Shown one piece after another: positions 124 to 46,000 of a DNA stretch of 64,000 nt. A program made the position numbers and the translations under genes. Below the pieces are notes generated by a model. The model saw only the letters and a program-made list of their open reading frames with translations, did not search any database and had not been told where the DNA came from. Each line of letters begins with the position of its first letter. Within the stretch, counting starts at the first letter, position 1. The stretch is from Argopecten irradians (lineage: Eukaryota > Mollusca > Bivalvia > Pectinida > Pectinidae): assembly GCF_041381155.1 (NCBI RefSeq), contig NC_091147.1, forward strand, positions 13,393,030-13,457,029, written 5' to 3'.

Positions 124-3100
124 CTTGCCAATCCAGATACCCCAATACATAGATGGTGCTTGCCTGGGATCCCATCCAAGTTTGAGGTTTCCATTAAGAG
201 AGATGATATGACAGGGAGCACCTTATCAGGAAACAAAGTTAGATATAATTAAAAATCAAACAAACAAGCAGTCAAAAAATTACAATAAAAGATAATAAAA
301 ACTGAAAATATATTAAAAAAAAAAGGCTTTAATATTTCAGAGTTTCAATTTGCACATACATGTGATGAAAACTTATTTGTAACATATTGAATTTGACAAT
401 GTGACTGGTGACTGTTTTATCGATAATTTTAATGATTTTTAGTTCATAAGTGAAGGACACAAAGTATACTTTAAGATGCTCCACCGCAGACATTAGTGGT
501 ATTTTTTCACTATTAAAAACAGGAGCAGACGATTTAGTATTCTTCTTCAGTTACAAAAGTTACTAACTTTACACCATTACCACCATTGAAACGTTTGAGC
601 TTCTAATTTTACTTCAAGTAAAAAATATGAAAAATAATTAATTGCATCCTGAAAAAATTCCGTGCCACTATATCCTATATGGAATGAAGTAATGATTGCC
701 CAAAGGCAAAATAAATTATTTTATATTATTTTTTGTGTTAATTAGATTATTATATACACGATTAAACACCAATTATTGTACAAATGATGAATATCATTTA
801 TGCTCTGTCGGCGGTGGAGCATCTTTAAAATTTGCATTATACCATATTTGACCCAATAAGCGCCCAGAGCGCTTTTAAAATTGAAGCAAATAAGGGGGCA
901 CTTAATAGAAACAAATTTGGACTAGTCAAATTTCCAAAAGATATCAGTAAGGAATCAACACAGTTTTGATATTTTCAGTCCACATTTACTTCGAAGTAAA
1001 TAAAGTTGAAGCCTAAAAAAAGGGGGAGGGGGGGAGAGGGGCGCTTTTAGGTAGGATACGGTAATTATATAAATGACACAATGTTTGAAAAATTATCAGG
1101 ACTCATTATGGAGCAAAAAAACTTCAATTCAAGACATTATATTTTAAGTTATCTGATATCAAATTCCATCAGCATCTACATCATATGAACATGTAATATG
1201 ATTAGCAAATGCAACCATATCGTGTACTGTATTGCAACGGTAGTTGATCATGAATGTACCATGTAATTCATGATATATAAGGTTTGCTATAGAAATGTAA
1301 CGGAGAAAAGCATTGCTTGCTTGTCTTGTTTCCAAGGTGCGGAAGCTGGAATTTTTGATGGCAGATGCCGTAGCAAGAAAATGTGGCCATGTGATTACAT
1401 GTGGAGGAGTTCAGTCCAACCACTGTAGAGCAACGGTCGTGGCCGCACGACAACTACAGCTACAACCTCACCTACTACTGCGGACAGATGTACAGGTAAT
1501 TTAAACAATGTAGAACTATACAGTCAAGATTTGATGCAATTACAGCTACCCTGCACATACTACAGATAGATGTACAGGCAATTACATCACCATAGAGCTA
1601 CTGTTAGGGGTTTAATACAATTACACAAAAGCTTCACCTCCTACAGATAGATGTACAGGTAATTAAATCATTGTAGAGCTACTGTCAGGGTTTTGATGCA
1701 ATTACAGCTAAACTACAGTTCTTGAAATATGGATATATCATTTGAGAGTGGAAAATGTGGCAGTACTCTTTATAGCTATAGCTTCCAACAACATTTTCTA
1801 CGAAGTGTGACCATCTGGTCCAAACCCCAGCCATGAGGAAGCAAGTCTAGAACCCATGATCATTGATCAACTGCTTCAAACTATCAGAAAATCTTACCCA
1901 AAAGGAAAGACTTTTTTTGGTCATTTGGTCCCAGTTATTCCAAGAAGGAAAGCTATCTGCCTTCCTCCACTGGTCTTGACCCAGGGAGAGGAAGGAGCAT
2001 CTTCCTTGTTTGACTGAACCCAGTTCACAATGGAACTATGTGTGGCCTGATCATCGAGCCATAACGCCTTAGGACTCTAGGTTCTTTCCTGAGATGTCTT
2101 CATCAACTTCTCGTCATGTCTCACATACGCTGTCCATTAGAACAATTGACTGGCAGTCTCAAGACCATGCAGCTGATTTTGCAGCTGACTTCACGTTGGT
2201 CTCTAATATGATGACGGGATTGCTCGTGCAACGCCAGCTTTACAACCAGCAGAGTCTTAACTGTCACGTCGTCTGAAGTTAGAATCACCTACTGTCTCAG
2301 TCGGATGTGACCTATACTTATGGTCAGCCTTCACCAGACAATAGGACTTGTATAAAATCGGAATGACAGTTAATGCACACATGTTACCTACTACCTGGTT
2401 TATTGGTGCAATGATTTGCGCACATACATACTTTGTCTAATTCAAAGTAATGTGAACCCATGTGAACCCACGAAAGAGGTAGACCTACACAGGTAATATT
2501 TCGTCATGTGAATTTCACGTGAAGAAAATATTCACGTAAATTTCACATGAAGAAAATCATGTGAAAAAATTCACCTGAATTTCATGTGAACATCGTTGAC
2601 GGGCAATGGGTGGCTTGTCCTTCGAAGCCTCAATCGATGTTCTCTGTCACCATGTGTATCTTGCCTGAACACCACACACCCTTCCGATACCCCTTACAAG
2701 ATGTATTGAGGCTCGGGTCAAGCTAAACCTCATTCCTATCAAACTTGCTATATGGAATGACAACGGGAAAACCTTGGCGTGATCGGTAAGGTATTCTTGT
2801 TGCATGGGTTGCCTATGGAGTCATTTGTACCCACTAACCAAACTGCCATTGCCCCTACGTCGGAGTACATTGTATCCTCACCTACTTCGGAGGACATTGT
2901 ATCCTCAATCCAAGACTCAGATAGAAAACACATGTCTTAAGCAAAAACCATCACATTTGTCTATCGTCTTACCATCAGCATAAATTGCAACAGAAAGGAA
3001 TGTGGAGGCATCGAAGGGTGAATACTTTATAATTACGGTGCAACAACCTTCAATGTACGTGAAAAACCAACTACTGCTACTAACTCATTGTGAAATATTG

Positions 3101-6100
3101 CAACTTCATGTTGATTGGACATTATGTCTTGTATGCATTTCATCGTACCAGCAGAGAGTCAGAACTCGCCTATCATGGCCACGGACCATAAGCCCATGGT
3201 GCAGAATGACAGGTCACTTATTGCTATTGACAAAGATAACTCTTCAGCCTAACAGAAAAAGCTTGCATTTTGATTCAAGGGTCATGATGCAGCCTCACAA
3301 AAACCGTCAAATGCAGAAAACCGCCTTTTAAGTGAATCGTAAGAATTTGACATGGTGGTATGGATTCTTCTCTACATCGACAGACGTGGAGGAGTCGCCG
3401 TCAGCACGTAGAAACCGCAGACGATACCCCAACCGTTGTAGCCGCAATAACTTCTTTAATTTTCTACAGTTAATGATTACCTGGGACTTGGAACTAGAAG
3501 CGACCGATATTTCTCCAGCTTATCTGTTTTCGGGAAATTAGTTTATAAACTGATCGAAGACAACTTCCATTAGCATTGCGCTTGTACCACCGCTGCAGTG
3601 CCAGCATATGTATGGCTCACGGGTCAAAGAATCGTGGTTACACATGTATTTCGCATTTGTTCCTCACAAAAGACCTATTTGCGAAATCTGTCCGGGAATC
3701 ACCCAGCCGATGGGACCAAACTGGTGTTCTAGTAAAGTTGAGATGGTACCACAGGACAGAGGGCGTTAACACAGACTGAAATGTTCATTATCTAAGGAAG
3801 TCCTTCCTCATACGAATCCAGTAGATATGCATGTAGTTGCACCACCAAATCTCTGTTGGGTTACCGCAGGGGTCTGATTCTCCGTCAAGTCAAAGGAAGA
3901 TAAACATACAATGGCCTACTCAGGAGACTCAGGCTGTGTTCTTACAAGTCCCCCTGATTTCACCCACTGCACTATCGTCAGAATCCCAACTTGTATTGCC
4001 TGATGAGACCCTACGGTTCACATACTTGTGTCGAAGTTTATTCAGTGTCTAGATTCATGAACCTACTATTGCACTCGTGATACATACATGAGGTGGCGGA
4101 ACGCCACATTTACTTCTGATTAGTGTTGTGTGGATCTTATTGCTAATTCCGTCATATCAATGCAATCAGATGTGTTGTTTAATTTGCTCCTCACTAACAC
4201 CTGTCCTTGGGGAGGAGATAACTGTCAATTAATAAGTATATATGTATAGGACAAAGAAGTAATTCCAACCGTGTGGACAAAACAAAATTGTCAAATTTTC
4301 GAGGCGATCTGCCCCTTTATCAAGACATTTAAAACGAACACGATTACATAATAGGATACGAACAGTAATGCGGGACATTTGTCTACTTTGTCCAGCATTA
4401 CTGTTCGTATCCTATTATGTATCCAACAGACTTACGTTTGATAGGATCCCGTGTCATCTGGAAAATCCTGTTGATATTACTTCTTTGACCCGAAGTATAT
4501 ATGTAGGTATATATTGCAGGTAACAGTCATGGTGTAGAAGTGTTATGCAAAAAAGCCATATAACAAATGAAGTTGATGGTGTTCATTTAATCCTAATTAC
4601 GTATATAATTATAATTTTAAGGAAGTAACTACACGACTATTCTTCTGGTTCTGGTTTTCATCTTAAATCAATATTGTTTGATACATAATATCATATTGTT
4701 TTCATTGATACATGGTATAATATTGTATTCTTTGATACATTAAAGTATAATAATGTTTTCATTGTTGTAGAATCAGTCAGAGATTGGAAGCGAGGGTAAT
4801 TTATTACTAGATCGCCTTTGTGGGGCTAATATACATATTGTACCAAAGAAATCGCGATACGAAACTGAACTAAAACCTCGCATGGAGAAGTTGGCCAAGA
4901 AACTCAAGTAAGTCATATCAATTTCAAACAATTAGGTAACATCAGTGTCATGATACTATTAGTTGGCCATTGATATTATACCGTATACACATTTGTGTTT
5001 GTCAGTGGATTGGGATCAATAAAGGTCTTTTTTTATATGGCAAACTAGATCTGTATATTTAATTTGTGTTTGTCAGTGGATTGGGATCAATAAAGGTCTT
5101 TTTTCATATGGCAAACTGGGTCTGTATATTTAATTTGTGTTTGTCAGTGGATTGATATCAATAAAGGTCTTTTTTCATATGGCAAACTGGGTCTGTATAT
5201 TTAATTTGTGTTTGTCAGTGGATTGATATCAATAAAGGTCTTTTTTTCATATGGCAAACTGGGTCTGTATATTTAATTTGTGTTTGTCAGTGGATTGGGA
5301 TCAATAAAGGTCTTTTTTCTATATGGCAAACTGGGTCTGTATATTTAAGAATGTTCTCTTCATTTGTAGTAATCAATTCCACATTTAAGACTTACGATCG
5401 ATAATTAATGTGTTTTAAACGTTTGTGGTCAAATGGCTGGCATTTGTATATTTGGGATAGTGTCCCCTATCCACACTCAATATACTTTCACACGCTTACA
5501 GTATTAATCTCACCTACAATGTATGATCAAAAACAATGTTTACGTGGATGTTTACTGATTTTGGATTTAAAGAGCAACCTAGCGACTTCCGTTTTGATAT
5601 AGAGTCTTATGCTTTCTATCACATCTTTAGATTTCTAAAATTGGGTTTGGAAGTCATAAAATCATTGCCTCATTGCGCGTCATGAGTTAAAAACCCCACA
5701 GTAGGCCAGGCAAGGTATTTCTCAGTAACCACGCAAATCCCTAAATAAGTTTTTATATGCTGTACATAATACTATTGTTTTTGTGGTATGAATATATCGT
5801 TTTTGATTTTTGGATATTAACATGTCGGATATTATGCAAATATGTGAAAGTTATTGCCATGTTATTTAATGATAATTAATGTAATGGTAATAACAAAATA
5901 TGTATAATAATATTATTATTTTGTGTTCTAAAGGGAGGAGACTGGAGAGGAGTCATATCTTGTTCCGGTTGGAGGTTCGAATTCTGTCGGCTTGTTTGGA
6001 TACATAACAGTGTTTCAAGAACTCATTTCTCAGGTAATTATCTCGATACCATATACTACCGGCAACACGCATATAAGTACATGAAGGGATTTTAAGGGAA

Positions 6101-9100
6101 GGGGTCTTATTACCGAATGTAGGTCTAAGTGTTTCCATACTCAAGAATTAGATTTTTTTGCAAACAGACTGATTGGTCAGTTGTCAGTATAATGTGACCG
6201 AGTGAAGTGTGTTGCTTAGTGTTTTCGGTGGCATGGTTCAGTGATATAGCACTATAAAAATGGCAAAAGTTCCACTATACAAGAAGACACAACACGAATA
6301 TACCGCAGTCTCCCAAAACACAACCGCACATCATACACGCAACACACCGCATACATGGGAGGCCGTCCATACATGACCCTGGCTGTTAATAGGACGTTAA
6401 TTAATCAAACATTGGTATCATAATTGATCAATAACAATATGATTTGGCCCGTATACATTCCACTTCCATATTAAACAAAAAAAAAAACAAAAATAAAAAG
6501 TAGTACTATTCTGATTAAAAGAAACTGTATCATAAATCGAAATTGTTGATATTTCAAATGTTTAGGGGTACATGTACAGAAATGTTTTGTCTTATGTATA
6601 AATACATATAACAAATAGGAATTCATAGGATGTATTTGACGCCGTAATGCATACCAAAGTTTTGTCATTTGTTAGGGCCTTTTTGAGCAGTTTGATGACA
6701 TTGTATTTGCGTGTGGATCTGGCGGTACGGCTGCCGGTCTGGCTATTAGCAACCATCTCACAGGATCTCATGTCAGGTAAAACAAATGTCAAAACATTTT
6801 TTATTCTATGTCCATTAATAACCGTGAAATAAATATGATTTACCATCGAAAATATGATGTCACGATCACCGAAATCTGGACGACGAACCGAAAGTAAATT
6901 GTACTTCACTCACGTTGTTTTGGTAACTTAAAATCGACGTACATTTTTTTGTACGTATTGTTCAGCATATGTTGGCTAAAAGTGAAAAAGAGCGCAATTA
7001 ATTAAGCGATACCTCCTTCCATATTATTAACACACTTGTTTAATTCCAAGCGCTATTACATTCTACTGTTGTCCTTAAAATATAACTTGGCTTCCCTAGT
7101 GTCTAGGTGATAAACATGATGACAGGATATACTTTTATACATAAAAGACTTGATATGAGTTGCTATGTGCAGTGTAATATGAAATTTATTTAATGCTTTG
7201 CAACAAGCCTTTAGGCGATTTATGTATCAAATTACTTAACGAGTTTAATAAATTTCATATTAAGTAGCCACGAGTGTAAGATTTTTTTATCACATAACTA
7301 GTATTTATGAAAATATAGACAAAACTTTTAATTTTGTTTCTATATAAGAGTGGAAAAATCAGGCACGTCTCCTCCACCGAGACAATCATGCGACGTCATA
7401 TTTTGACACGAGATAGTTATGTGATAATTATATATCATTATTAGTTTGTATTCTAAACTTCGAAGAATTTCTATGGTGAAATGAAATGAAATAATTTCAT
7501 ATAGGTATACAAATAACATTTAGTCTAGACTACTTTTATAGTTTTTTTGAGGTATCCTACTTTTATAGTTTTTTTGAGGTATCCTCAATGACTAAGAAGG
7601 AATTCGGCCAGGACCAGACAGTACATGTGTAGTTAACCAAATAATTCCGTGTTCATATTAACCAAGTTCCATTGAATATTTCATTATTTCACAGTATATT
7701 ATAGATAAGAATAAATTATATGGCATTTTTGTCTCTATGTCAAAAATATTGTCTGATTCAGATTTTTCTGGCCTGTATTCTGTAACTACATTGTACTCGT
7801 TAAAACAGGTGCCATGCTATTATAGTGTGTGATGACAAAGCTTACTTTACTGATCACGTCGATCAGACATTGGTCAGAGTTGGTCTGGACAATGTCCACT
7901 GTCAAGATATACTGGACATCATTGAAGGTCACAAAGGTCGTGGATATGGTCTGTCTACACAGGGGGAGCTGGGTAAGATTAGTTGTGGCAAAAAAAGGCA
8001 ACAGTAGTTTTGAATTGTTTTCTATTTACAGTTTTGGTATTATTTTTTTTCAAATTGTATAAGTTATTTGCCTCAAAGATCAACACTTTAAAGCTGTTGA
8101 CATTATAGTCTAACGGATGTCGATGTGTTTTCATTTCTTGTTCAAATATACTATATAACAGCTAATTTTTGCGGAGATATTTTCGCGATTTTGCAGAACA
8201 CTAGACGTAATTGTACATGTAGTCATGAAAATGTCTTATGCCAATTTATGAATTGTTCATAAATCATACATTCCCTAGTCATATCGCTTTACAATTGGCT
8301 CTAATTCCTATTTTCAAAAAAAAAAATATATATATATATTTGACCCAGAACAATAACCTGATATACAGTGATAAATATGATATGTACATTAACGTTGTCA
8401 GAGTTCATCACAAATGTAAGCCGATCGACAGGTATAATGTTGGACCCTGTATACTCGGGAAAGGCTGCTATGGGCCTTGTGGAGGAACTCCATAATAATC
8501 CACAGAGGTTCCAGGGAAATCGGATACTTTTCTTACATACAGGTTTGTATCCATTTACGTTTTGTGTTATACATTACGTATGTTGATGAATATTAAGTAC
8601 ATACATCACGTGTATCAGCCAGTATTGAAGAATTGACTTGTCAGGATAGATCATTAGAGGGTATCTATTAAAGTTGTATTTCTTGTAATTTTCACCATCA
8701 CAAACTCTCATAAAACATACAATGTGTGAATATGGATGCTTACATATGATAGTTCAGATCCATAAAAGCGCAAATATACTATTGACATAGCGGTAAATGT
8801 CGCATGAAATATCACACGTTTTGAAAGAACCGCCATAGTTAACGCCATGTTTCAAACTTTCGGGTAATATCTGAAAACCGAGTTGCATCACTTGACCGAC
8901 ATCGGCGATACCCGTATAGATCGGAACCTCCCGAGCCGTATCACGTGGTCAATATCGGCAATACCCGTACATATCGGAATAGATAGGAACAGTTCGGATA
9001 CTTCCGAGCTATTTTTAACGCGCACACGTTAAAAAATCAACATTTTAATTTAATTGTTTAATAACTTAGGGAATACGAACTTTGCAGAAGTCGGCAAATA

Positions 9101-9585: not shown

Positions 9586-9928
9586 TAAAATGGTGATAAT
9601 CATAAATTTCGTTTATATATATAATGATAAGTATGTGTTTTTAAGTCATTCCATGCGATTATTTTATCTTAATTTGTACAAAAGCATATTCCATGTAGAG
9701 TATTCGTATGCAAAAGTATATTCACCAATTTATCATACATTATAATACATAACAAAACACATACAATGATTTGTTGAAAAATTCCGATTTTTTTAGCCCT
9801 TGTTCAATCGATTCACATATTGCATGTTTATAAATCTCTTCATTAGTAGTTGAACAAAACTAAATTAATCTTCTACCATTCTAACTATTGTCTATATCTA
9901 GTACTGCCATCATTTGTTTGATTGGATC

Positions 9929-9934
9929 AATAAA
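9929..9934 (+). terminator. Candidate polyadenylation signal, desulfhydrase-like gene
   Basis: AATAAA lies about 345 bp after the stop at 9585. Another AATAAA overlaps the stop codon region (9584-9589) and one lies near 10193. The real cleavage site cannot be chosen from sequence alone. Confidence 0.35.
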
Positions 9935-18100: not shown

Positions 18101-21100
18101 AAACGTTAAAACTCATTTAATTGAAGAAAGGCAAGTACTAGTATTGTTCTCATAAAGCTAGGTAATATGTGTGATGCCTTTATACGTACCTGATACTTTG
18201 GCGATAGTTGTTGCCTTTCTGTCGGAGATATCAGGCCAGTATGGCTTAATGGCGTCTTCAACAGTCTGGGCCGATAGACTACTAAGACCAGACGATAAGG
18301 TGCTGGAAGAAGGCACGAGGGTTTAAGCTCACGTTATGGAGACAACTCATAAATAACGTTAATCAAATCAGGAAGCTATTGTTCTGAGAAATATTGTCCA
18401 TCTGATGCTCTACGGGTAGTGCATTACAGAGGACTCAATGGATATTTAATCTTGTCTTTTTACTAACCTACTTCTTGAGCTAGGCAAACGTGTACGAAAT
18501 CTTTTGACTCTAAATCGCGAAATTTAAATAGCCGTGAAAATAGTAGGAATGAAAACACGAAAACTATTTGGTTTACGGTATCGTTTGTCTTCAAATGTAC
18601 GTTCAATATTACCGATATTGATATTACTCAAATAAGAAAATGACGTACGTACCTGAGTGATGCACAGAACAAGGAGGCCATAAATAGACCTGACATGCCA
18701 GGATTGTCTTTAAACAGCCAGATGACCATATACGGAATTATCTATAATATAATGGAATAATACATACTGAAACCATGCCAGGATTGTTTTAAACAGCCAG
18801 ATCACCATATAAGGTGTTATCTTTAATGAAACAGACTAGCACATATTCATTAATAATGTGTTTATCTATTATGGCCTGGCTGAAAGGGCACTATTGCCTC
18901 ATAGTCGAGGGATGGCATGAATTTCGGCTCCGGCACTATCCCATCACGAGACAATACTATGAGGCAATAGTGTCCTCTCAGCCAGGCCATAATGGGTTTA
19001 GTACATCACCCTGATATGAGACCGTTTTCATGTCATCGTGACAGAAGCACGTCAGGCGCCAGCTCGCAACGCTATCTTCATTTCCACACCACGTTGTTAC
19101 ATTAAAAGTACAACATATGAATTGTCGCAGAAATCTGCGATTCTATAAAATGGGATTCAGCTTCACGAAGATTTAAAAGTATATCAATACAGTGAACTGT
19201 CTTTTGTAGAAAAGTAACGTTTCCTTCCATCCCCGCACACATTATTATGACGTCATGTAATGGGGACGTCACAATACATTTACCTTCGATTTCGCGCCTA
19301 TTAAACATGTGGTGCCCGCTTGCCCGGGCACTCTTGAAAATAGTCGTCATGTATGTAACCAAATAGTCGTCATGTGTGTAACCAATCAGAATCCAGCATT
19401 CTGTCACATGATGTACTAATATTCTATTATGGCCCTTTCCAGAGGGAACTGTTCTCCTATAGTATTGTCTGGCGAGGTATAGTCCCCGAGTCGAAGACTC
19501 GGGGACTATACCTCGCCAGACAACACTAAAAGAGAACTGTTCCCGAGGAAAAGGACCATAACAGATTTAGTACGTCATATGACATTCATTATGACGTCAT
19601 ATTTTTGGTCGCGTGCTCACTCTCGGGGGGAATATACTTTGGTATAGTTCCCGTAGTCAGGTATTGTCTCCCGTAGTCAAGAAGGACAGGTAACTGTCGC
19701 CAAATCGATCATGGCTGTTATCCAATCGCGTTCCCAGTAATTTTCATGTGATGTACTAAAATTATTTATTAATAAGCATTAAACTATCTTGTTTATGGAA
19801 TAAGTATATATAATCTAAGTAGAGGCCATAGCTTTGCAGATTATCTTCATTTGTCTTGCTTTTTCACTGTACCATTCCCCGACAGTATGACAATATGATT
19901 TAGTCTTAGTGGTATATCCCTTACTCGGCCATATGCTGTATCACGTTTTGTATCGACAATCTACATTATATCAAACTTTTGACATTTAAGTTTAAATCTG
20001 ATAAGGCGTCATACATATATTGAAACATTATGTATAAAGTAATATATTATATGAAAATGTTTGATATTAACATCTAGATTCATTTATATTTGAGCAATAC
20101 AAAGAACTACCGTTTATATATAAATTTGACCTATTTCTGTATTCATAAATAGTTCATACATTCATGAACACAATTGCCATTATGTGGGACGTGAATGCAT
20201 GATAATAAAATGGAAAATTCAGAACCACGCTCAAATGCCACGTTGTCTGGCTGCGAATATAGGTTTTAGTAAATCTACAAAAAATGCTTAATATCAAAAC
20301 TACACACGTCATTCTAAGCGATGTATACATACATTTACAACTATGAAAATGTACATGGTACTTTTATTATCTTATTAACGAATTCTCTACAACGACAGAA
20401 AACTAGAGAACATAGCAACGTGAAGGCGATGAATGATTAAAGTAAGAGCATTGGCTATACATGTAGATATCAAGACAAGGCCTTACTGTAAATATAATTT
20501 TATAAACGGTAAAACATTTACAAAAATCTATAAATCACACGAAGTTATATGGGAATAGTTTTACTACTCAGTGCACACGAATGGTCAACCCATTTGTACA
20601 GATAACTAACATGTCACACGTCAATCCGTTAGCATGGTCTACTAAAATGTGTACACAAATTGTTAATCCGTGTGATCGGATTAGAAAATTTATTTTTAGA
20701 GTTATTTTCTATTAGTAAAATTTGTTTATAGATTGCAATGGAGAGCAAATAAAAATATACATTACAATCGTGATAAAGGTCTGACAAATGTACCTGATTT
20801 GGATTTTTGATTTGTCCTGATGCCAGTGGATCACACCCAATAGTGTAGAAATAGGCCACGGCTACCAGCCCCTCAAACGTAGCAATGGAGAAGGTGAGAA
20901 AGAATGCTGGACCCGAAAATAGGAAAATCCTGTGAAATAGAAAGACAATGATTAGTTTTGTAATGAGTTCATATTAATTCATGTCGTGAAGTCTGTCCTT
21001 AAGTTTTTTTTTCATTGAATGGGTCGTCATGGCATTGCTATTGATATATATATATGGTTTTCTTAGTACCCTGTTCAATGCCTACGTTGGAAAAAGATTT

Positions 21101-24100
21101 GTCACATGTACATGTATCATCTACTGATTCTATGTCGTAGTTTGGTTACTACAATTTGTAAAATAAAAACATACATAAATGTCTAGCAGGATGAAGAATG
21201 CGTTTTCTTAAAGTACGTAACCCACTAGTAAGTGTTTGTGATCAAAACATTATACTAAGATATTCTAACAAATGCTACAAATTTATTTTGGCGTTACATT
21301 CAGCGGGTACCGATGTTTTTAATTTCTAGATGATCAAAACATCATACTAAGATATTCTGACAAATACCACAAATTTATTTTGGCGTTACATTCAGCGAGT
21401 ACCGATGTTTTTAGTTTCTATATTGACTCCTTGACGACCTGTTAAATATACACGGGGTTTTTTAATACTAGATTTACCTGTTGAACTCCTATCCAGGTTG
21501 TGCTGACGTTTTAGGTGATGTACTTACTTTTAGGTGGTGTACTGACGTTTTAGGTGATGTACTGACGTTTTAGGTGATATACTGATGTTTTAGGTGATGT
21601 ACTTACTTTTAGGTGGTGTACTGACGTTTTAGGTGATGTACTGACGTTTTAGGTGATGTACTTGCTTTTAGGTGATGTACTGACGTTTTAGGTGATGTAC
21701 TTACTTTTAGGTGATGTACTTATTTTAAGATGATGTACTGACGTTTTAGGTGATGTACTGACGTTTTAGATGATGTACTTACTTTTAGGTGATGTACTGA
21801 CGTTTTAGGTGATGTACTGACGTTTTAGATGATGTACTTACTTTTAGGTGATGTACTGACGTTTTAAGTGATTACTTATTTTAGGTGATGTACTTACTTT
21901 TAGGTGTGTACTGACGTTTTAGGTGATGTACTTACTTTTAGGTGATGTACTTACTTTTAGGTGATGTACTGACGTTTTAGGTGATGTACTTACTTTTAGG
22001 TGATGTACTGACGTTTTAGGTATGTACTTACTTTTAGGTGATGTACTGACGTTTTAGGTGATGTACTGACGTTTTAGGTGATGTTACTTTTAGGTGATGT
22101 ACTTACTTTTAGGTGATGTACTGACGTTTTAGGTGATGTACTGACGTTTTAGGTGATGTACTGACGTTTTAGGTGATGTACTTACTTTTAGGTGATGTAC
22201 TGACGTTTTAGGTGATGTACTTACTTTTAGGTGATGTACTTACTTTTAGGTGATGTACTTACTTTTAGGTGATGTACTGACGTTTTAGGTGATGTACCTA
22301 CTTTTAGGTGATGTACTTACTTTTAGGTGATGTACTTACTTTTAGGTGATGTACTGACGTTTTAGGTGATGTACCTACTTTTAGGTGATGTACTTACTTT
22401 TAGGTGATGTACTGACGTTTTAGGTGATGTACTGACGTTTTAGGTGATGTACTGACGTTTTAGGTGATGTACTTACTTTTAGGTGATGTACTGACTTTTA
22501 GGTGATGTACTTACTTTTAGGTGATGTACTGACGTTTTAGGTGATGTACTACTTTTAGGTGATGTACTTACTTTTAGGTGATGTACTTACTTTTAGGTGA
22601 TGTACTACTTTTAGGTGATGTACTTACTTTAGGTGTTACTTACTTTTAGGTGATGTACTACTTTTAGGTGATGTACTGTACTTTTAGGTGATGTACTTAC
22701 TTACTTTTAGGTGATGTACTGACGTTTTAGGTGATGTACTTACTTTTAGGTGATGTGACTTACTTTTAGGTGATGTACTACTTTAGGTATGTACTGACGT
22801 TTTAGGTGATGTACTGACTTTTAGGTGATGTACTTACTTTTAGGTGATGTACTGACGTTTTAGGTGATGTACTGACGTTTTAGGTGATGTACTACTTTTA
22901 GGTGATGTACTTACTTTTAGGTGATGTATTATTACTTTAGTGATGATGTACTTATGATTAGACGTTTTAGGTGATGTACCTACTTTTAGGTGATGTACTT
23001 GCTTTTAGGCATCCTGTTCAGTTGTTACTGATGTTATAGGTTATGGGTACTTTTTTGAGACTTCTTCATGTTTATCTGATATTTAGCTTTAGACCTACTT
23101 TATGGCATACTGTTAAGGGAGAACCGAGAACAGGTTTTTTTTATAAAATTATAGGCTTACTTTGGCAACCTGTGCAGTTTTTACTGACGATTTAGTCTAT
23201 ACACTTAGTGTTTCGGCGACCTATTCAATGTGAAGCTGACATTTTAGCTTCTAGACTTACGTTTTGGCTTTCTGTTCAGTTTTTCTGATATTTTAGCTTC
23301 TAGACATATTTTTGGCGTCCTGTTCAGTGGCGCTATGGTCATTTTTTTTACTGAAATTTTAGTGTCTAGACTTAAGCTTACTTTTTGGCGTCCTGTTCTG
23401 TAGGTACTGAACATATCCTCTGAATGGTCGACTGGTTTATGGTGAGATAGATCAGACGTATCGCTGAACCGAACAAAAGGTTCCAGAAGGTGTGGCGCAC
23501 AGTCGGGTCAACATCGAAACTTAAAAATAAATTTAACGTATGTCTTAAAACACAATCGCCAAAATCCATCAACGTAATTAAAATTATCTAATCGGGAAAG
23601 AAGACCTTATTCTCAAAGCATCATCCTGTTATTGGAATAAATGTTTGACCATTCTGTGGAATTCAATGCATTGGTAGGAAAATAAATCCCAATTACTAAA
23701 TATTACGTAGCCAAACAGGGTATATATTTATTAATTTATAAAAATAAAAATAAAAAATTAAATTAAATAAATATTACGAATAAGCTATACTCACTTAAAG
23801 TAGTTTAAACGACCGACTTTACCATTAATTTCGAACACCCTATCGAAACCACCGGCCACCATGCACCCCTAAAAAAGACGTGGCACAGACAATAGCTTTA
23901 GATGATCAAAGAGGACAATTATCAATCCCTATATAATATTGTGTTTATAGATGTAACACACGTATTACTTTCAAGGATGCCCGTTAGTTTCTCTTTATTA
24001 ATAGAATGGAAAGTTGTATTATCAACAATTACATATTGCCTGTGTGACGTTGAAAACGTATCTCCGTTGAAAATTGACCTCGGGTCAGTTTTCAACGTTG

Positions 24101-30925: not shown

Positions 30926-30932
30926 ACAACGA

Positions 30933-32706: not shown

Positions 32707-32712
32707 TTTATT
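32707..32712 (-). terminator. Polyadenylation signal of MPDU1
   Basis: TTTATT on the plus strand is AATAAA on the minus strand, about 60 bases after the MPDU1 stop (32773). Confidence 0.55.
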
Positions 32713-32772
32713 AAACAAAAATAATATGCTTTGACCATTTAAGAAATAACGTGTCCCATTATGACCCCTTTT

Positions 32773-35700: not shown

Positions 35701-37408
35701 AAGATAAAAATAAATTGCAGGTACTCTGTTGCTGTATTCCTAATCAATTGTATGTCACTACATGTTTTCAGGTTTTGGTGGTGGTTTATGCATTGTAACA
35801 TATTGGACAGACTTAAACATTCTGATGAGGAATATACCTATGTGATAGTAGTCGAATACAGGGATTTCAAGGTCCCAAAACGACATGAGTAAAGTACAAA
35901 TTTATTATCATTAATCCCACCATGTAGTGATTATTAAGTGATCACTTGAGGTGAGTCATAATCACCGAATGGTGGGATTAATCAACAGTAAATTGTTCTT
36001 TACCCTTGACTTCCTGTATTGGACCAGCTCAATCATCAGAAGAACTGTTTAGAGGTTCCAGGTTCATGTCCTCTTTGACTGCTAGTCCAGATACATTTCT
36101 CCTCTACTGATTTAACCAATTGGCAGTCAACAGATATAGTATAAGGTTTGTGTCTTCTAAGGTGAAGTTTGAGAAAGGAGGGAAGAGTACTAAGTGTAAC
36201 ATATATATATTATATATATAATACTGGGGGTTATGACACCGGTGACTACAGCAGGTACGTAGACATGTATCTCAATCCAGCTAGTGTTCGTAGGTCCCAG
36301 GCCGGTTACACTAGATCTACTCTCCTGTTATTGCAGGTTCTCCAATAAAGCATATGGGCAGATGTGTATGCATTTAACAATCTAGCCCGAGATACTCTGG
36401 CCCTGACACCAGACTTAGACATTATGACAGATAGATGTTTGGTGTAGGGACAGAGCGCAGTGCTATATCAAAAGTTGGAACTCGCCGACACTGTTTGGTA
36501 TCTGGCCAGGTCATCTCAGACTGAGACTGCTAACAACACATTATAATCACTGAGGAGCATCACTTAACTTTGCCTTTCAACAAATGAACAATTTATCTAC
36601 CCATAGCAATCCATTTTATCATGCCTGCACGTTATATTATGTCCATAAAGTAGCTTCCTTCATGCAACTTTAAATCTTCCTCCTTGTCGGCGCCATTTTC
36701 TCATAGTATGAAAATCGCCTTTAATCTATACGGATTGCTATATTTGAGTAGATAAATTATTCATTTGTTGAAAAGACCAAGGTAAGTGAGGTTTCTCAGA
36801 GGTCAGTGTGATTTTAGAGATGACCTGACCCGATACCAAACGGTGTTGGCGAATTCCAGCTTTTGATATAGCAATAGCACTGCGCTCTGGCCCTACACCA
36901 GACATCTATCTGTAATAATGTCTAACCTGGTGTCAGGGCTAGAGTATCTCGGGCTATTAACAATCAAAATGTAAGTAAAAACGTTATCAATAAGCATCAT
37001 TTAGATCTAGTGCATTTTTTTAATAATTTAATTTTTGCTTCTATTAAATTTTCGATCGTGTATTCAAAATAAAACATAATTCGTGTCAACAAGCCAATAT
37101 CGATATATATCCTATAGTCTACTTCCTACACGTCATGAACTTTGAACAGAGATCAAGACGTTTCGTCCCCAAATCATATATAAAAAGAACGATAACAAAA
37201 ACATTGTGGACGAAACGTCTTTCTATAATGTCAGAATAAAAGCTGCAAAATATATCTTATCTTACACAGAACTAGATTCCAAACAATCGAAAAATGTACC
37301 TTCGAAGAAGTTGAATTTGACAAAGAATTCATCGTAGCATGGTTGAGGTACAAAAACCTTCACGGTTCTCTCCAGAAGAGATGCATCCGTTGTTGCCGGT
37401 TTCGCCAT
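32773..37408 (-). CDS. MPDU1: Mannose-P-dolichol utilization defect 1 protein (complete, 5 exons)
   Basis: Exons in transcript order: 37408-37300 (ATG at 37408), 35687-35622, 34830-34698, 33480-33276, 32994-32773 (TAA). The CDS is 735 bases, 244 residues, close to the human protein (247). MPDU1 is an ER membrane PQ-loop protein needed for use of dolichol-phosphate mannose and glucose in N-glycan, O-mannose and GPI-anchor assembly. Diagnostic stretches: [33 protein letters not shown] (PQ motif), [74 protein letters not shown] and a lysine-rich tail (NKKPKED). All junctions are GT/AG and phase-consistent. It lies head-to-tail upstream of the SLC5 gene. Introns carry a tandem duplication, two foldback elements and a MITE with clear target-site duplication. 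Confidence 0.97.
33905..34206. repeat. Two-copy tandem duplication (about 150-158 bp)
   Basis: GGATTTTGACCAGTA, AAGATCTCATTGATATAAAG and CAATATACCATATTTGGTTG occur twice in order. It lies in MPDU1 intron 34697-33481. Confidence 0.85.
34214..34610. mobile_element. Foldback element with about 68-bp arms
   Basis: Left CCCTTTGTCAAGACACAAG with GGTCACGGACGTACACAAAAA pairs with right TTTTTGTGTACGTCCGTGACC and CTTGTGTCTTGACAAAGGG. A second nested inverted pair lies inside (GTGTAGTCAAAATTAGTTTC). The right flank to about 34690 is shared, inverted, with 4238-4340. Confidence 0.85.
35912..35980. repeat. Hairpin (TAATCCCACCAT arms)
   Basis: TAATCCCACCAT and ATGGTGGGATTA flank an inner GTGATTATTAAGTGATCAC region. 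It is a short foldback in MPDU1 intron 1. Confidence 0.7.
36383..36956. mobile_element. Non-autonomous DNA transposon with 9-bp target-site duplication
   Basis: TAGCCCGAGATACTCTGGCC at the left end is the inverse of GGCTAGAGTATCTCGGGCTA at the right, allowing a mismatch. Inverted arms extend about 200 bp (GCGCAGTGCTATATCAAAA, ATGACCTGGCC). The element is flanked by perfect TTAACAATC copies at 36374-36382 and 36957-36965. Long arms and a 9-bp duplication fit a Mutator-like MITE. No transposase is present. Confidence 0.88.
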
Positions 37409-37878
37409 GGTTTTGTTGGGTCCTTGAAATGTTTGAGATGTAGGGGGAACCGGATAAAGCGCTTAATTGATCCTGAAAGGGCGTGTACAACAGTCTAACC
37501 CGGATTTCGACCCGATCAAAGGTAGGATGTAAATCTCATCTGCTTCATCAAAGATCCACATAAATAATATATTGTTTCTCATGTTGTAACATTTTGTTTT
37601 ATGATATTGAAATATTATTCTATGCTATAAATATTTGAATGACAATCAAGGATCCACATGGATAATGAATAAGGAACTAACACAGTCTCGCTTGGCTGAG
37701 CATTGACCAGTCGCTGAGCAGTGTAGCCTGCTATATGGTAGGTGTCCGGCGATCCTAGGTTTACCGAAAAAAACCTAATAAAGATCATATGTAAATTGTG
37801 TGTGTGATTTTGTCATTAATGCTGCACAATGCACGAGACCCAAAATGAGTTACAGATCAAATGAAAAATTAATTACTG

Positions 37879-38226
37879 TTAAAGATGCTCCACCGCCGAC
37901 AGAGCATAAATGATATTCATCATTTGTACAATAATTGGTGTTTAATCGTGTATATAATAATCTAATTAACACAAAAATAATATAAAATAATTTATTTTGC
38001 CTTTGGTGCATGCGCAATCATTACATCATTCCATATAGGATATAGTGGCAAGGAATTTTTTCGGATGCAATTAATTATTTTTCATATTTTTACTTGAAGT
38101 AAAATTAGAAGCTCAAACGTTTCAATGGTGGTAATGATGTAAAGTTAGTAACTTTTGTAACTGAAGAAAAATACTAAATTGTCTGCTCCTGTTTTTAATA
38201 GTGAAAAAATACCACTTGTCTGCGTT
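37879..38226. mobile_element. MITE, copy 2 (inverse of 471-828)
   Basis: It begins TTAAAGATGCTCCACCGCCG and follows the reverse complement of copy 1 almost base for base to about 38226. The far terminus (TTGTCTGCGTTGTC in place of TGTCTGCGGTGGAGC) is lost. The two copies are about 37 kb apart. Confidence 0.8.
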
Positions 38227-38646
38227 GTCATAGTTGTGTATAAACTTGGGTAACATATTGAAGTTTATACGCATATTCCTGAATATGCTTGTGCCTGAAA
38301 AGTCTTTATTTATACAATTTACAAAGGTGAACAAATATAGACCTAATGTAAAACAGACATTTATTAATGTACAGCTCTAGCTAACTCGGATGTACAGGTA
38401 CGTGCATGATTTGTTTGTTTATTTATTTATTTAATTATTTATTCAAATCATTGGATTATTCAAGTTATTGTTTTAGCAAATCTAATGAATGACCTTTTGA
38501 AAGGTTCACTGCCTTTGCGAAACAAAATTAATATTTTTTAAACCAATAATGATACAAAAAAAAATGTATATTAATGATGATATAACACCGACCAAATGCA
38601 GGATTCCCCGCGTAAACTATGTAACCGTGAATATTAATGTCGCTCT

Positions 38647-38885
38647 GCTTCAACCGACGTGCGGTAATTAGGACGACGGCGGAAAACATAAAACGACCCG
38701 CGTTATGAAAATTAGCATAAAATTTATATAAATTAAATTGTAAAAAGGTGAGGGTAAGCGTAGTATCTACAGTCAGTTTAATAACTTTTGCGACTCTATG
38801 GATTTATCAATTTCGTTTTACATTCCCGTTTTAAAGATTAAAAGCCGTTTCGGAAAGGTAGTGGCCCTTTAATGGTTCAACTGTC
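38647..38885 (+). repeat. Dispersed direct repeat, partner at 40497-40725
   Basis: GGACGACGGCGGAAAACATA, CGACCCGCGTTA, AACTTTTGCGACTCTA, TCGTTTTACATTCCC and AAAAGCCGTTTC recur in the same order and orientation at 40497-40725. The two copies flank the first coding exon of the dehydrogenase. Confidence 0.8.
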
Positions 38886-39329
38886 AATTTGTTAGTGACA
38901 ACCCCGACTTGAATTCGATAAGCTAAAGTTGGGGCAGCTCTTTTTGGAATGACCGACATATTCTTAAGATGGAACATTGATTTTGAAGCTCTCAAGACTG
39001 AAAGCCTGATCGAAACTATTAACCCATTTTTCCGTCTATTTTATTTTTGAGGATCTTTAGTTTGTCCGCCACGTTTTTTCAAATACGCTGAGAGAAATTC
39101 TCAAAAGATGTAAAGATGGACTCGTACGTTGAGCTTGTACTGTTTCGTATAATTACGTATTCATATAATTCCGTGTGATCGCCACGCTGACCGTATGAGT
39201 AGGCGTGTTGATTGATTTAATATTAACGGTCTAGACGACAATATAAAAATTTCTGGTGACTAATTTCATGGAGTCATCATCCTGTTCTCATGGCAATGCA
39301 TGCTTGAGGTTTTCCCCCACTTTACCTGC

Positions 39330-39449
39330 GTACACGTCCGTTGAACGTTTCCCTCCATCATATATCATGAGATACTAATAGAATATTTCGTACACGTCCG
39401 TTGAACGTTTCCCTCCATCATATATCATGAGATACTAATAGAATATTTC
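39330..39449. repeat. Perfect 60-bp tandem duplication
   Basis: GTACACGTCCGTTGAACG through AGAATATTTC is repeated without visible difference, about 630 bp upstream of the dehydrogenase start codon. It is either very recent or an assembly artefact. Confidence 0.9.
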
Positions 39450-40080
39450 AATTCCTTTGTGGTGAGACAGGAGAATCTCAACACAAGGGGTAAGATTCTT
39501 AATAATCTTATCCCGATGGTTGAGATCTGCCGTATATATACTATCACCCTAAAGTGAGTGAATGGTTCTTTTTCTCCAGTATACTCTATGTGAGCATGTG
39601 CAAAGATCTCGTGTTGCTTGTCCTTACTCTAGCATGAGATAGAAAAAGTTCACACTCGGTAAAATTGCGGATATCCCAGAACCCTGTCCGGGGTAAGAGA
39701 ATAAAAAAAAAACCCACTTCAACCCTGCGCCATTCTAAAAAAGTTTGCAAAATCACGAGATCGATCAGCCTTCACTTGTTGCGTCTAATAAACAAAGCGT
39801 GTGGCATTTTGAGACTGTGGTTTCCGAGGCGGAACCTAACAATGCAGAGACTAGGCGTATCTGATGCTGCAAGGATATCTTCAAATGGATCATTTACAAT
39901 TGCATTGACTAGTGTTGGGTCATTCTTACTCCTTTGTACTTTTGCTGTTCATATAATGTACACGGATTGGCGTCAGTACAATCACTCAATATCCGGTCAC
40001 AGCTGATTTGATGTTTTTTAGGTTGGTCAAACTCTCTTTTATCCTTATTGCGTACTGGTCAGGTTTTCTTTTCAGGAATC

Positions 40081-43000
40081 ATGAGTTTGAACGGACAGGT
40101 TGCCGTGGTAACAGGTTCGACCAGCGGAATCGGTAACGGGATAGCTTCGGCTTTGGCGTCACGTGGATGCTCTCTTATCATAACAGGACTCGCTGACCAA
40201 GAGACAATAAACCGGGTCGTCACGACCATCAAAAGGTACGTAATACTACGTATGTATTAGTTTACCTATCAAAACAGTTATAATGTTCATCATTGCGTCA
40301 TCACTGTATGGTTACAAGCCCACTACTTTTCCGGAGGAAGCCATAAAGGTTTCTTTAACCATTAATAACAACAGAAAATATACACCGAAGGCCTAAGATG
40401 AGGTTAAAACACCAAATATATGCGGGATTTCTTGCGTAATGTATATATGATAACAATGGAGAGTCATTTCGCTGTTTTGCCGACTGGCGCAGTGATAGTC
40501 AACTACCGCGCGGTATTTAGGACGACGGCGGAAACATAAGACGACCCGCGTTACAAAAAATAACAGTTCATTTATTTTAATTTAATTTTTCAGAAGGTGA
40601 TGATACTTGTAGTATTAACGTTAACTTAACTTTTGCGACTCTACAAAATTATCGATCTCGTTTTACATTCCCATTCTAAAAATTAAAAGCCGTTTCAGAA
40701 AGGTTGTGGGCCTTTTAGAAAATGTACGTCGAATTATCCTGTCCATCCACTGGTACATACCTCACCAATACACATGTACTGTAAGATGTTTAGCTTCCAC
40801 TGTTTTTCTTCTCTTTGTTTGGTTTTGATCTAAAGTATAGCATCAGCGTATCGAAGATATAACATCAGTATAAGGGTTTTGGGAAAGGTGCGTCATTATG
40901 AGTATGGCCTCAAAAAAGGTGCGTCATTAAGAGTATGGCCTCCAAAAAGGTGCGTCATAATGAGTATGGCCGCCAAAAAGGTGCGTCATTATGAGTATGG
41001 CCGCCAAAAAGGTGCGTCATTATGAGTATGACCTCCAAAAAGGTGCGTCATTAAGAGTATGGCCTCCAAAAAGGTGCATCAATATGAGTATGGCCTCCAA
41101 AAAGGTGCGTCATTAAGAGTATGGCCTCCAAAAAGGTGCGTCATAATGGAGTATGGCCTCCAAAAAGGTGTGTCATAATGAGTATGGCCGCCAAAAAGGT
41201 GCGTCATTATGAGTATGGCCTCCAAAAAGGTGCATCAATATGAGTATGGCCTCCAAAAAGGTGCGTCATTAAGAGTATGGCCTCCAAAAAGGTGCGTCAT
41301 AATGAGTATGGCCGCCAAAAAGGTGCGTCGATATGAGTATGGCCTCCAAAAAGGTGCGTCATAATGAGTATGGCCGCCAAAAAGGTGCGTCATTAAGAGT
41401 ATGGCCTCCAAAAAGGTGCGTCATAATGAGTATGGCCGCCAAAAAGGTGCGTCATTACGAGTATGGCCTCCAAAAAAGGTGCGTCATAATGAGTATGGCC
41501 TCCAAAAAGGTGCGTCATTAAGAGTATGGCCTCCAAAAAGGTGCGTCATTATGAGTATGACCTCCAAAAAGGTGCGTCATTAAGAGTATGGCCTCCAAAA
41601 AGGTGCGTCATTATGAGTATGGCCGCCAAAAAGGTGCGTCATTATGAGTATGGCCTCCAAAAAGGTGCGTCATTATGAGTATGGCCGCCAAAAAGGTGCG
41701 TCATTATGAGTATGACCTCCAAAAAGGTGCATCATTATGATTATGACCACAAAAAGATATGTCGTTATGTGTATGGCCACAAAAAAATACATCATTATGA
41801 GTATTGCAACAAAAAGATACGTCATTATGAGGATGGCCACCAAAAAGATACGCCATTTTTAGAATGACCACAAAAAGTTTGTGATACACCTGTATTGCCA
41901 TCAAAACGGTAAAAAGCCATTTCATGAAAATATTTGCAAAAATTAATTTCTCCTCTCATGAATACGTCACAAATCACATGAGATCAACAAATGTCTTATT
42001 TGCCATAAATACCAAACCAGAAAGTGATTACGAAGTACCTCAAAAACCGACTCCTCGTTCTCACCCTCCTGTGGGGCGTGACGGTGGTTATTTACAGTAT
42101 TTTTTTTATTTACAGTGAGTACAAGGTTGAAGCTACGTTCGTGCCAGGAGATCTCTGTTCTGTTGAGGCGATAGAGGAATTCTGTAAACAAGTGTTGCAG
42201 TTATATCCCGCAGGAATTGATATTCTAGTCAATAATGCTGGTACGTAGAGACTGCTTTTATGAGTTATCTCCCTTACTTAAATGAATGCACATGTCAACA
42301 ATGCGGATTCAACTAATTGTTAATAGTCGAGTTATCGCCCCTGCCTGGATAGTCTCCCCTCACTGAGTTGAGGTACAGACGTTTTTCGCCAGTGCATTTG
42401 TAAGATAAATCGGTTAAACAGTCATAAGTTGATGTAGGCGTTATATTATAACTAAGAAGAAATTATCAGATGGTCTATTACTAATTATAAAATCTAATTT
42501 ACAAGTGTTTCTATCACTCTTATATGCAGTGTATATGATAATATGTTACATGTACCTTATGGGGTATACCGACTCTGTCTTTTTAAGATAACGGTACAAT
42601 AATGACCTGGGTCTTTAAATGTTATACTGTAACCAAGTATGTTTTTTTCACGTATATTTCCTACCCATCAGGTGTCCAGCACCTTGACTTAGTAGAAGAC
42701 TACCCTACAGAGAAATGGGATACGATGGTGGCGGTGTCGCTTTCTGCACCCTTCCATCTGATGAAGGCGTTCGTCCCGGGCATGAAGGCCAAAGGTAGGG
42801 TATATTGTGTGTCCTGAAGCTTTTGTGTGTCTATGTTCTGAATTATTTAATTATCAAAGTAACAACGAGAATTGAAAACCATTGGTGTTAGGTTGAATTT
42901 CGGAAATAAGTTTTAGAATAGAAATAAAAATCGCTGTAGATGGGGCTTCATGGTATGGACCCAGCCTGACGAATTTTCTAAAATAGAATTTGATTTTCAA

Positions 43001-46000
43001 GGTATTCAATTTACTCGTCACTAATGATATTGGTATTCTGGAGAATAGGTTTGGCAGAAGATTTTGCAGTTGTTCAATTCTGAATGGTCATTCTTTTTGT
43101 ATTCCAGGTTGGGGGAGAATTGTCAACATTTCGTCCCAAATGGGGATCATCAGTGGACCAGGCAAGGCCCCGTACAGTGCCGTAAAGGCCGGCCTCATAG
43201 GACTAGCTAAGGTATTGCCCGGCCCCATAGGACTAGCTAAGGTATAGACCGGCCTCGTAGGACTAGCTAAAGTATAGACCGGCCTCATAGGACTAGCTAA
43301 GGTATAGACCGGCCTCATAGGACTAGCTAAGGTATAGACCGGCCTCGTAGGACTAGCTAAGGTATAGACCGGCCTCATAGGACTAGCTAAGGTATAGACC
43401 GGCCTCGTAGGACTAGCTAAGGTATAGACCGGCCTCATAGGACTAGCTAAGGTATAGACCGGCCTCATAGGACTAGCTAAGGTATAGACCGGCCTCGTAG
43501 GACTAGCTAAGGTATAGACCGGCCTCGTAGTAGGACTAGCTAAGGTATAGACCGGCCTCGTAGGACTAGCTAAGGTATAGACCGGCCTCGTAGGACTAGC
43601 TAAGGTATAGACCGGCCTCGTAGGACTAGCTAAGGTATAGACCGGCCTCGTAGGACTAGCTAAGGTATAGACCGGCCTCGTAGGACTAGCTAAGGTATAG
43701 ACCGGCCTCGTAGGACTAGCTAAGGTATGGGAAGAGGTACCGGCCTGATAAGAATAGCTAAGGCATAGACCGGCCTCGTAGGACTAGCTAAGGTATAGTC
43801 CGGCCTCGTAGGACTAGCTAAGGTATGGAGGAACCGCCTGAGGTACCGGCCTGATAGGACTACATTGTAGCTAAGGTATAGACCGGCCTCGTAGGACTAG
43901 CTAAGGTATAGACCGGCCTCGTAGGACTAGCTAAGGTATGGGAAGAGACCGGCCTCGTAGGACTAGCTAAGGTATAGACCGGCCTCGTAGGACTAGCTAA
44001 GGTATAGACCGGCCTCGTAGGACTAGCTAAGGTATGGGAGGAATATCAGTAACTTTCTCCTATCAAGAACGTATAGGAGGATTTTGTTGTTATAAACACT
44101 ATTTACATGATTTTAACAACAATTATTTCCCCTGTAATAACTTAAGATGTAACAGTGGTATTCAGATATGTGACATACATACCAGCTTGTATTTTTCAAA
44201 ACCCAATAAAAATTGCACTGATGCATAATTTACATACACAAAACGTTTTAGCATGACAATTTATGTCGCATCCTGACTATAGTGTTTGTTCTATTACATA
44301 TTTATTACACAAATAATAGAATCCTGGCTACCCTAGTAATCTGAAACTTTGCCGACATGTCAGAGATTGCATATTGAGTGTCCCCTGCAATATGATGATA
44401 ATTTTAAAGCCGCCACCACATTCAACATGCCGCTTTGCGGTCTGTGAAATGTTCCTCTAATGGTAAACAGTTTTTCGTTCCGTCCTCATAAATAAACAAG
44501 AGATCCCAGAGGGATCTTGGCGCCCACCAAAAATGATCTATGTCTGACAATGGAAAGAGGGATCTTTTCCCTGCTTTTCAAACTTTTTCAAACACACTAC
44601 ATATAAAATTTGAGACAGATCGCTATAGTACTTTCTAAGAAATAGTGGTAACAAACTTCAACAATGAAATCTAAGATGGCGGCCGGTTGGCTATCTTGTT
44701 TACCGATCAGTCCCGAAAGGCATTATGTATCAGTCCTAAAAGGTACTATGCACAACTATGGTACAAGGGGAACCTACACATTTGAGAGAGATCCCTTCAG
44801 TACTTTCTGAGAAATAGCGGTAACAAACTGTAACAATCAAAATCCAAAATGGCCGTCGGTCGGCCATCTTGTTTACCGATCGGTCACAAATAACAATATG
44901 CACAACTAGGGTCCTTGGGGAACCTTCATATGAAATTTGTGAACGATACCTTTAGTACTTTTTGAGAAATAGCGGTAACAATCTTTAACTATCAAAATCC
45001 AAGATGGCCGCCTGTTGGCCATCTTGTTAAACGATCGGTCCCAAAATGCAATATGCACAACTAGGGCCCTAGAAGAACCTATATATGAAGTTTGAGAAAG
45101 ATCCTTTCAGTACTTTTTGAGTAATAGCGGTAACAAACTTTAACTATCAAAATCAAAGATGGCTGCCTGTCGGCCATCTTGTTGACCGATCGGTCCTAAA
45201 ATGCAATATGCACAACTAGGGTCCTAGGGGAACCTGTATATGAAATTTGAGAAAGATCCCTTCAGCACTTTTTGAGAAATTGCGGTAACAAACTTTAACT
45301 ATCAAAATCCAAGATGGCCGCCTGTCGGCCATCTTGTTGCCCGATCGGTCCCAAAATGCAATATGCACAACTAGGGCCCTAGAAGAACCTATATATGAAG
45401 TTTGAGAAAGATCCTTTCAGTACTTTTTGAGTAATAGCGGTAACAAACTTTAACTATCAAAATCAAAGATGGCTGCCTGTCGGCCATCTTGTTGACCGAT
45501 CGGTTTTTAAATGCAATATGCACAACTAGGGTCCTAGGGGAACCTGTATATGAAATTTGAGAAAGACCCCTTCAGTACTTTTTGAGTAATAGCTGTAACA
45601 AACTTTAACTATCAAAATCCAAGATGGCCACCTGTCAGCCATCTTGTTCACCGATCGGTCCTAAAATGCAATATGCACAACTAGGGTCCTAGGGGAACCT
45701 GTATATGAAAATTGAGAAAGATCCCTTCAGCACTTTTTGAGAAATTGCGGTAACAAACTTTAACTATCAAAATCCAAGATGGCCGCCTGTCGGCCATCTT
45801 GTTGACTGATCGGAGCCAAAATGCAATATGCACAACTAGGGTCCTAGGGGAACCTGTATATGAAATTTGAGAAACATCCTTTCAGCACTTTTTGAGAAAT
45901 TGCGGTAACAAACTTTAACTATCAAAATCCAAGATGGCCGCCTGTCGGCCATCTTGTTGAACGATCGGTCCCAAAATGCAATATGCACAACTAGGACCCT

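Follow-up and report, generated by a model that had tools for sequence, protein, structure and literature searches.

Minisatellites that straddle exon-intron boundaries have been described in at least two settings. In amphioxus, repeats termed mirages can occur at 5' as well as 3' boundaries, many (not all) of their units carry AG/GT splice signals, and regular splicing is apparently undisturbed (PMC3087553, PMC3902484). Genes in human segmental duplications contain minisatellites with units of 30 bp on average, some of them at exon-intron boundaries, which can yield alternative splicing and novel introns (PMC2812944). Here we describe arrays of this kind in the bay scallop Argopecten irradians, within a window (the whole stretch of DNA analysed, 64,000 nucleotides; contig C14, positions 13393030-13457029) that carries three neighbouring genes: a D-cysteine desulfhydrase-like gene (g1), a sodium-dependent multivitamin transporter-like gene (g2) and a D-beta-hydroxybutyrate dehydrogenase-like gene (g3). 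Three of the four arrays considered, numbered 1, 2 and 4, are genuine exon-edge arrays, the first unit of which is the exon end with its own donor. The scallop arrays are a known type of repeat, that of the amphioxus mirages, now found in a mollusc.

Exon-edge arrays in three neighbouring genes

Exon edges were placed with A. irradians protein records or, for the desulfhydrase-like gene, with a near-identical protein. Those for the transporter-like gene (P0241) and the dehydrogenase-like gene (P0001) map exon by exon to the window, the translation of joined exon pairs differing from P0001 at no position and from P0241 at none or one. The desulfhydrase-like gene was mapped with P0121, with exon identities of 97-100% (90% for the last match). 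As the 364 amino acids of P0121 fit a contig of 1,524 bases while its gene spans more than 9 kb, we took this record to represent spliced RNA; P0121 thus looks RNA-derived, and P0241 and P0001 are annotation only. In all, 29 introns were placed (7 in g1, 15 in g2 and 7 in g3), and each exon edge was compared with the adjoining intron and with 100 first-order shuffles. Four of the 58 edges beat all shuffles: the donors of arrays 1, 2 and 4 and one acceptor, that of g2 intron 8. The other 54 edges have z values of 2.7 or less.

Array 4 lies at the donor of g3 intron 4 (z 9.6, all 100 shuffles beaten), where the last 30 nt of the exon (43182-43211) are the first of about 28 units. Beyond the far end of the array the sequence reads AAG/GTATGGGAGGAATATCAG (slashes mark splice boundaries), which is likely to be the original start of the intron.

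Array 1 consists of diverged copies. Its seed is the last 80 nt of the exon (approximately 1416-1495), repeated with a period of about 83 nt up to approximately position 1735, to give four copies, of which the first is exonic and the last incomplete. Copy 2 ends in CAG/GCAATT and copy 3 in CAG/GTAATT; the partial copy 4 has no donor. The best copy scores 47, the maximum of 100 shuffles being 30 (z 10.0, donor of g1 intron 2).

Array 2, at the donor of g2 intron 7, is built in two tiers. On the sense strand the exon end reads ACAGAACAGGACGCCAAAAA/GTAAGC, and the array begins with the last ~20 nt of the exon plus the donor. A GT at the donor position is kept in two of the five aligned first-tier copies and is missing from the other three; the sense strand of the array contains AAAGTAAGT at 29 sites. 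This donor beats all 100 shuffles in the window edge test (z 3.9). The last 25 nt of the exon score 36 in the decayed part of the array, where the maximum of 1000 shuffles is 29, and this score tops all 1000 shuffles with queries of 25 and 40 nt and 999 of them with queries of 60 and 90 nt. The last 40 nt score 36 in their own intron and no more than 22 in any of 19 other introns. In a second edge test, extended to six genes (see below), array 2 falls below the threshold z of 3.5, because shuffles of its intron retain the repeat composition; the verdict on this array therefore rests on the alignment of its copies and on the 1000-shuffle test.

The acceptor that beat all shuffles belongs to the same gene. 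It is spanned by a two-copy duplication (18694-18845) scoring 77 against a shuffle maximum of 33 (z = 19.0).

A preliminary description of this DNA had all four arrays starting at or near the 3' end of an exon, with units resembling the exon end and its donor; the range it gave for array 2 takes in the end of the exon, and it did not mention the acceptor duplication. Shuffle tests and unit lists uphold this description in the case of arrays 1, 2 and 4. For array 3 it is not confirmed, the upstream exon end being absent from that array in the edge test (z = -1.0 with 100 shuffles).

Splicing appears to ignore the additional copies. The records P0121, P0241 and P0001 join all mapped junctions with zero or one mismatch per exon pair and contain no repeat-derived residues across the array junctions; in the Ylistrum and Mizuhopecten orthologs the junction of array 4 reads GLAKGVALE and GLSKGVALE. 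Translation continued past the first donor ends at a stop codon in arrays 1, 2 and 3, after 2, 1 and 8 residues respectively; in array 4 the next unit is open for 10 residues and the following one reaches TAG. Some of the unit lengths (30, 31, 19 and ~83) are not multiples of three. Given protein records free of repeat residues and stops in read-through, splicing in the three window genes appears to use the first donor, and nearly all copies would be dead as coding sequence.

Table 1. Coordinates of exons, arrays and related features in the window and in two sampled stretches (L024, L015).
Feature	Position	Strand	Basis and remarks
Exon, D-cysteine desulfhydrase-like gene	1337..1495	+	Spliced mapping of P0121; donor CAG/GTAATT at 1496; the final 80 nt form the first copy of array 1
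Array 1, exon end repeated in three more copies, all diverged	1496..1735	+	Exon edge against intron, shuffle control
Two-copy 79-bp duplication across acceptor (exon start 18741)	18694..18845	-	Edge against intron score; upstream copy with frame-shifting gap
Array 2, second tier, 19-bp sub-unit, ~78 copies, sense GTAAGTACATCACCTAAAA	21499..23009	-	Tandem Repeats Finder (TRF); donor scan
Array 2, first tier, about six decayed ~50-nt copies with a version of ACAGGACGCCAAAA	23010..23381	-	Alignment of five copies
Exon, sodium-dependent multivitamin transporter-like gene	23382..23519	-	Spliced mapping of P0241; ends GCCAAAAA/GTAAGC, donor at 23381
Gap between intron 1 donor and array 3	40236..40883	+	Genome search for dispersed element
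Array 3, 31-bp unit, ~31 copies, most with donor-like AAG/GTGCGT (24 sites)	40884..41872	+	TRF; donor scan
Exon, D-beta-hydroxybutyrate dehydrogenase-like gene (SDR)	43108..43211	+	Mapping of P0001; donor AAG/GTATTG at 43212
Array 4, ~27 further units, mostly 30 bp, GTATAGACCGGCCTCGTAGGACTAGCTAAG	43212..44035	+	TRF; unit list
L024 array, ~14 units of 55 bp, begins with aryl hydrocarbon receptor-like exon end	L024:193-959
L015 array, ~45-bp units, begins with Peptidase_M13-like exon end	L015:2635-4180

Array 3 starts about 650 nt beyond its donor, and a search of the intervening gap found no further copy of its unit. Among the 29 donors the unit best fits its own (24, against 20 for the runner-up), with P = 0.0026 for a random GT site when arrays are excluded and 0.017 when they are included. 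When the whole array is taken as target, another donor ties with its own (28 and 28), and 60-mers elsewhere within 39000-46500 score 23 against 24 for the array's own donor. The resemblance is thus not distinctive, and an origin of array 3 at the junction is unproven. All 26 matches in the 846 Mb genome to a 28-base stretch of the unit (up to two mismatches) lie inside array 3, which therefore arose at its locus. The same search rules out a dispersed satellite.

Other features of the window may be mentioned here. A dispersed element of 404 bp (40312-40715), 86-89% identical to at least 40 other places in the genome, lies in the gap before array 3. The intron of array 4 also holds a 155-bp array followed by ACGG repeats (44780-46124), and similar 155-bp arrays are present in one of the stretches sampled below (L033). 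Between 32776 and 34945 there are open frames on the minus strand, which we take to resemble MPDU1.

Recurrence elsewhere in the genome

Because the window was picked for its pattern, exon edges in paralogs and in a systematic sample of the genome were also examined. Three paralogs of the transporter-like gene, one of them partial, provided 14, 10 and 10 introns, or 68 edges. One junction of the P0246 gene is poorly defined (7/33), being counted among its 14 introns and excluded from the tests of 62 introns described below, and three further paralog introns rest on junction matches of 11/19, 10/17 and 19/26. A single edge of the 68 has a copy beating all 100 shuffles. This is a donor in the P0246 gene, where the last 66 exonic nt are repeated 392 nt downstream with 100% identity, inside a two-copy duplicated stretch of approximately 320-350 nt.

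The systematic sample consisted of 22 ten-kb stretches spaced at 4 Mb along contigs C1 and C2 (220 kb). Tandem repeats, in 65 arrays, make up 37,262 of its 220,000 bases (~17%), 10,000 of which come from stretch L014 alone. We looked in the sample for arrays in which an open exon is followed by a donor within the first units, and found seven candidates, three of them with a supported exon (L024, L015 and L027). Two are high-copy exon-edge arrays. The L024 exon encodes 45 amino acids matching the aryl hydrocarbon receptor (AHR; E = 1.5e-7), with a PAS match (E = 0.01) below the Pfam cut-off, and its array has eight CAGGTAAGT sites on the sense strand, the real donor included, and none on the other. 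In L015 the exon matches Peptidase_M13 (E = 1.1e-4, slightly below the Pfam cut-off); 31 sense sites of its array, again with the real donor, match [AG]GGTAAGT, and the other strand has none. The L027 exon matches Xan_ur_permease (E = 1.4e-9) and is followed only by a two-copy 17-bp duplication running from the donor on, without exon sequence. The remaining four candidates gave no family match in Pfam, the peptide used for L014 being the acceptor-side version. That exon ends with their donors are amplified recurrently, as had been proposed from the window, is therefore borne out in unlinked genes.

A mirrored search for acceptors also returned seven candidates, one with a supported exon (L027 5091-5124, Xan_ur_permease, E = 2.3e-6). 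L027 2649-2728, read as part of the same permease gene, and four others had no Pfam match, and L033 2705-3344 fell outside the scan. A test of the donor-likeness of repeat units in 16 random stretches was uninformative: two of the 19 long arrays reached the median, the reversed control giving 4 and shuffles 0.8.

L014:1-10000 consists entirely of a 157-bp satellite, an apparent reverse-complement relative of which was seen by eye at L015:6320-6749. In L027, three of the five listed tandem repeats (1567-1600, 2649-2728 and 5091-5124) coincide with what look like a donor edge and two acceptor edges, seemingly of one permease gene.

Origin of the arrays

The arrays are probably mirages, minisatellites seeded when a local tandem duplication of the ordinary kind chanced to span an exon-intron edge. 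This reading is based on the anatomy of the arrays, their recurrence, the unchanged protein records and, for six genes, counts at exon edges that do not exceed those in random intronic sequence; slippage as the mechanism, neutrality and the choice of the first donor in living cells are what we infer from these. Tandem duplications would arise throughout genes in the repeat-rich A. irradians genome. Where one spans the 3' end of an exon, the real exon and donor would stay in place as copy 1, later copies being shifted into the intron, and the change would be near neutral if the spliceosome keeps to the first donor. From there, slippage or unequal exchange could enlarge the array, and its units could be partly homogenised.

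The main alternative, which we consider unlikely, is that amplification is directed to junctions, transcription or splicing (through R-loops, nascent RNA bound by U1, or pausing) making the 3' ends of exons prone to duplication. Several observations favour it and count against duplication at random. A model of seed placement in the three window genes predicts 0.45-0.56 donor-spanning arrays where three are seen in 29 introns (P = 0.007-0.015), and P = 0.006-0.019 is obtained for four edges of either kind. An exon end is recognised in four of the high-copy arrays (array 2, array 4, AHR-like and M13-like); all of these sit at donors and none at acceptors, an outcome expected once in 16 under a symmetric process, although it was noticed post hoc. 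Against the reading as tolerated duplication, though not in favour of directed amplification, is that the first two repeats of the M13-like array remain in frame. The window to which the seed model was applied had, however, been selected for this very pattern.

Comparison with random intronic sequence argues in the other direction. Over 62 introns of six genes, exon edges and random intronic 90-mers were tested for copies at a threshold z of 3.5. Three of the 62 donors pass (four with array 2, taken from its separate test), as do three of the 62 acceptors, two of which (paralog intron 3 and P0287 intron 9) did not beat all 100 shuffles in the paralog tests. Among random intronic 90-mers, 35 of 300 pass with the copy downstream and 37 of 300 with the copy upstream; without the six array-bearing introns, the figures are 18/264 and 19/264. 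On a generous count, 7 of 124 edges compare with 72 of 600 intronic 90-mers (Fisher p = 0.04, towards depletion), and donors alone, 4/62 against 35/300, give p = 0.27. As random intronic 90-mers pass at least as often, exon edges are not enriched for tandem copies. Nor are tandem repeat loci called by TRF found at splice edges beyond chance, with 4 seen against 6.1 expected in the 62 introns (P = 0.89). Among our arrays this count includes only array 4, since array 1 is uncalled, the rows for array 2 stop short of the donor and 18694-18845 is unlisted; adding these loci would bring the count near the 6.1 expected. Acceptor edges are duplicated too, and a donor-specific process is rejected on that ground. 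The preliminary proposal of a process acting at exon-intron junctions is thus not supported, and the enrichment check meant to refute it, carried out here on a small scale, speaks against it.

It is possible, and we put it forward tentatively as rather less than probable, that donor-edge mirages are widespread in scallops (the 220-kb sample held two high-copy arrays) and that growth to high copy number can take place at donors and not at acceptors: the spliceosome would commit to the exon-proximal donor despite some 20-30 comparable copies, but would make use of additional acceptors. On this view the arrays constitute a natural experiment on splice-site choice and a standing reservoir of splice sites. 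Should scallops show the pattern as often as our small sample suggests, many exons would be trailed by long rows of near-identical donors, and the donor used in RNA along such rows would be a direct test of how one of several equal 5' splice sites is picked by the spliceosome.

A selected function, in which sense-strand arrays of U1 sites shield the pre-mRNA from premature polyadenylation (telescripting) or serve as donor decoys regulating splicing, seems very improbable. Donor-like sites, defined as scoring no lower than the bottom quartile limit of real donors, are indeed numerous on the sense strand (2, 41, 25 and 24 in arrays 1-4, the 2 of array 1 including the real donor) and few on the antisense strand (2, 0 and 0 in arrays 2-4, array 1 lying outside the antisense scan), with one in total on both strands of six control arrays. 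These sense counts are partly circular, since arrays 1, 2 and 4 contain copied donors, and donors on the sense strand only are what the copying of a donor should produce. Moreover, none of the sense donor-like sites in arrays 2-4 reaches a U1 duplex energy of -8, and the loss of GT from three of the five aligned first-tier copies of array 2 speaks against selection for such sites. The polyadenylation signal AATAAA occurs 0, 2, 0 and 3 times in the four array introns, below the intron average of 1.23 per kb; without enrichment of these signals telescripting gains nothing, and the earlier suggestion of telescripting arrays is not sustained. Two long minisatellites of the window, 57686-58873 (56 bp) and 59592-61937 (31 bp), to which no gene was mapped, served as controls.

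We find it scarcely credible that the arrays made the introns in which they lie, through duplication of AGGT-containing exon segments, even if their units do carry AG/GT and amphioxus mirages have been proposed as a source of new introns. The intron of array 2 and that of the acceptor duplication occupy positions common to three paralogs that show no copy there, so that neither duplication created its intron. For these two transporter introns intron gain is rejected, and with it the earlier idea of a route to new introns as applied to array 2. Long near-identical arrays are hard to assemble, but misassembled or miscounted arrays are an equally implausible explanation, given that arrays 1 and 2 are diverged with an ordered decay that neither collapse nor false expansion would produce and that the same anatomy is met on contigs C1 and C14.

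Comparison with known systems

Our search of the literature, which included molluscs, covered mainly titles and left most subscription papers outside its reach; no report of mirages beyond amphioxus was noticed in it, which is weak evidence of absence. The features that the scallop arrays share with amphioxus mirages are tandem units that cross an exon-intron boundary, a unit length of 10-160 bp, AG/GT signals in many (not all) units, the involvement of both boundary types and the retention of the regular mRNA. In the scallop window, boundary-spanning repeats are present in arrays 1, 2 and 4 and in the acceptor duplication, unit lengths are 30, ~50 (with 19 nested) and ~83 bp, many units carry splice signals according to the sense donor scan, both 5' and 3' boundaries are affected, and splicing is preserved according to the protein records. 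The scallop arrays differ in their bivalve host, in the nested second tier of array 2 and in the dozens of near-identical donors that some arrays contain.

The minisatellite units are similar to those of the human boundary repeats (PMC2812944), the difference being that scallop protein records show unchanged splice products. With the Rogers model of intron gain by tandem duplication (PMC4974935, PMC2395259) the scallop arrays have in common the duplication of segments containing splice sites; unlike what that model describes, the transporter introns pre-date their arrays and no new intron was seen. The scallop arrays extend mirages from amphioxus to molluscs, and suggest that arrays derived from splice junctions require no junction-specific process.

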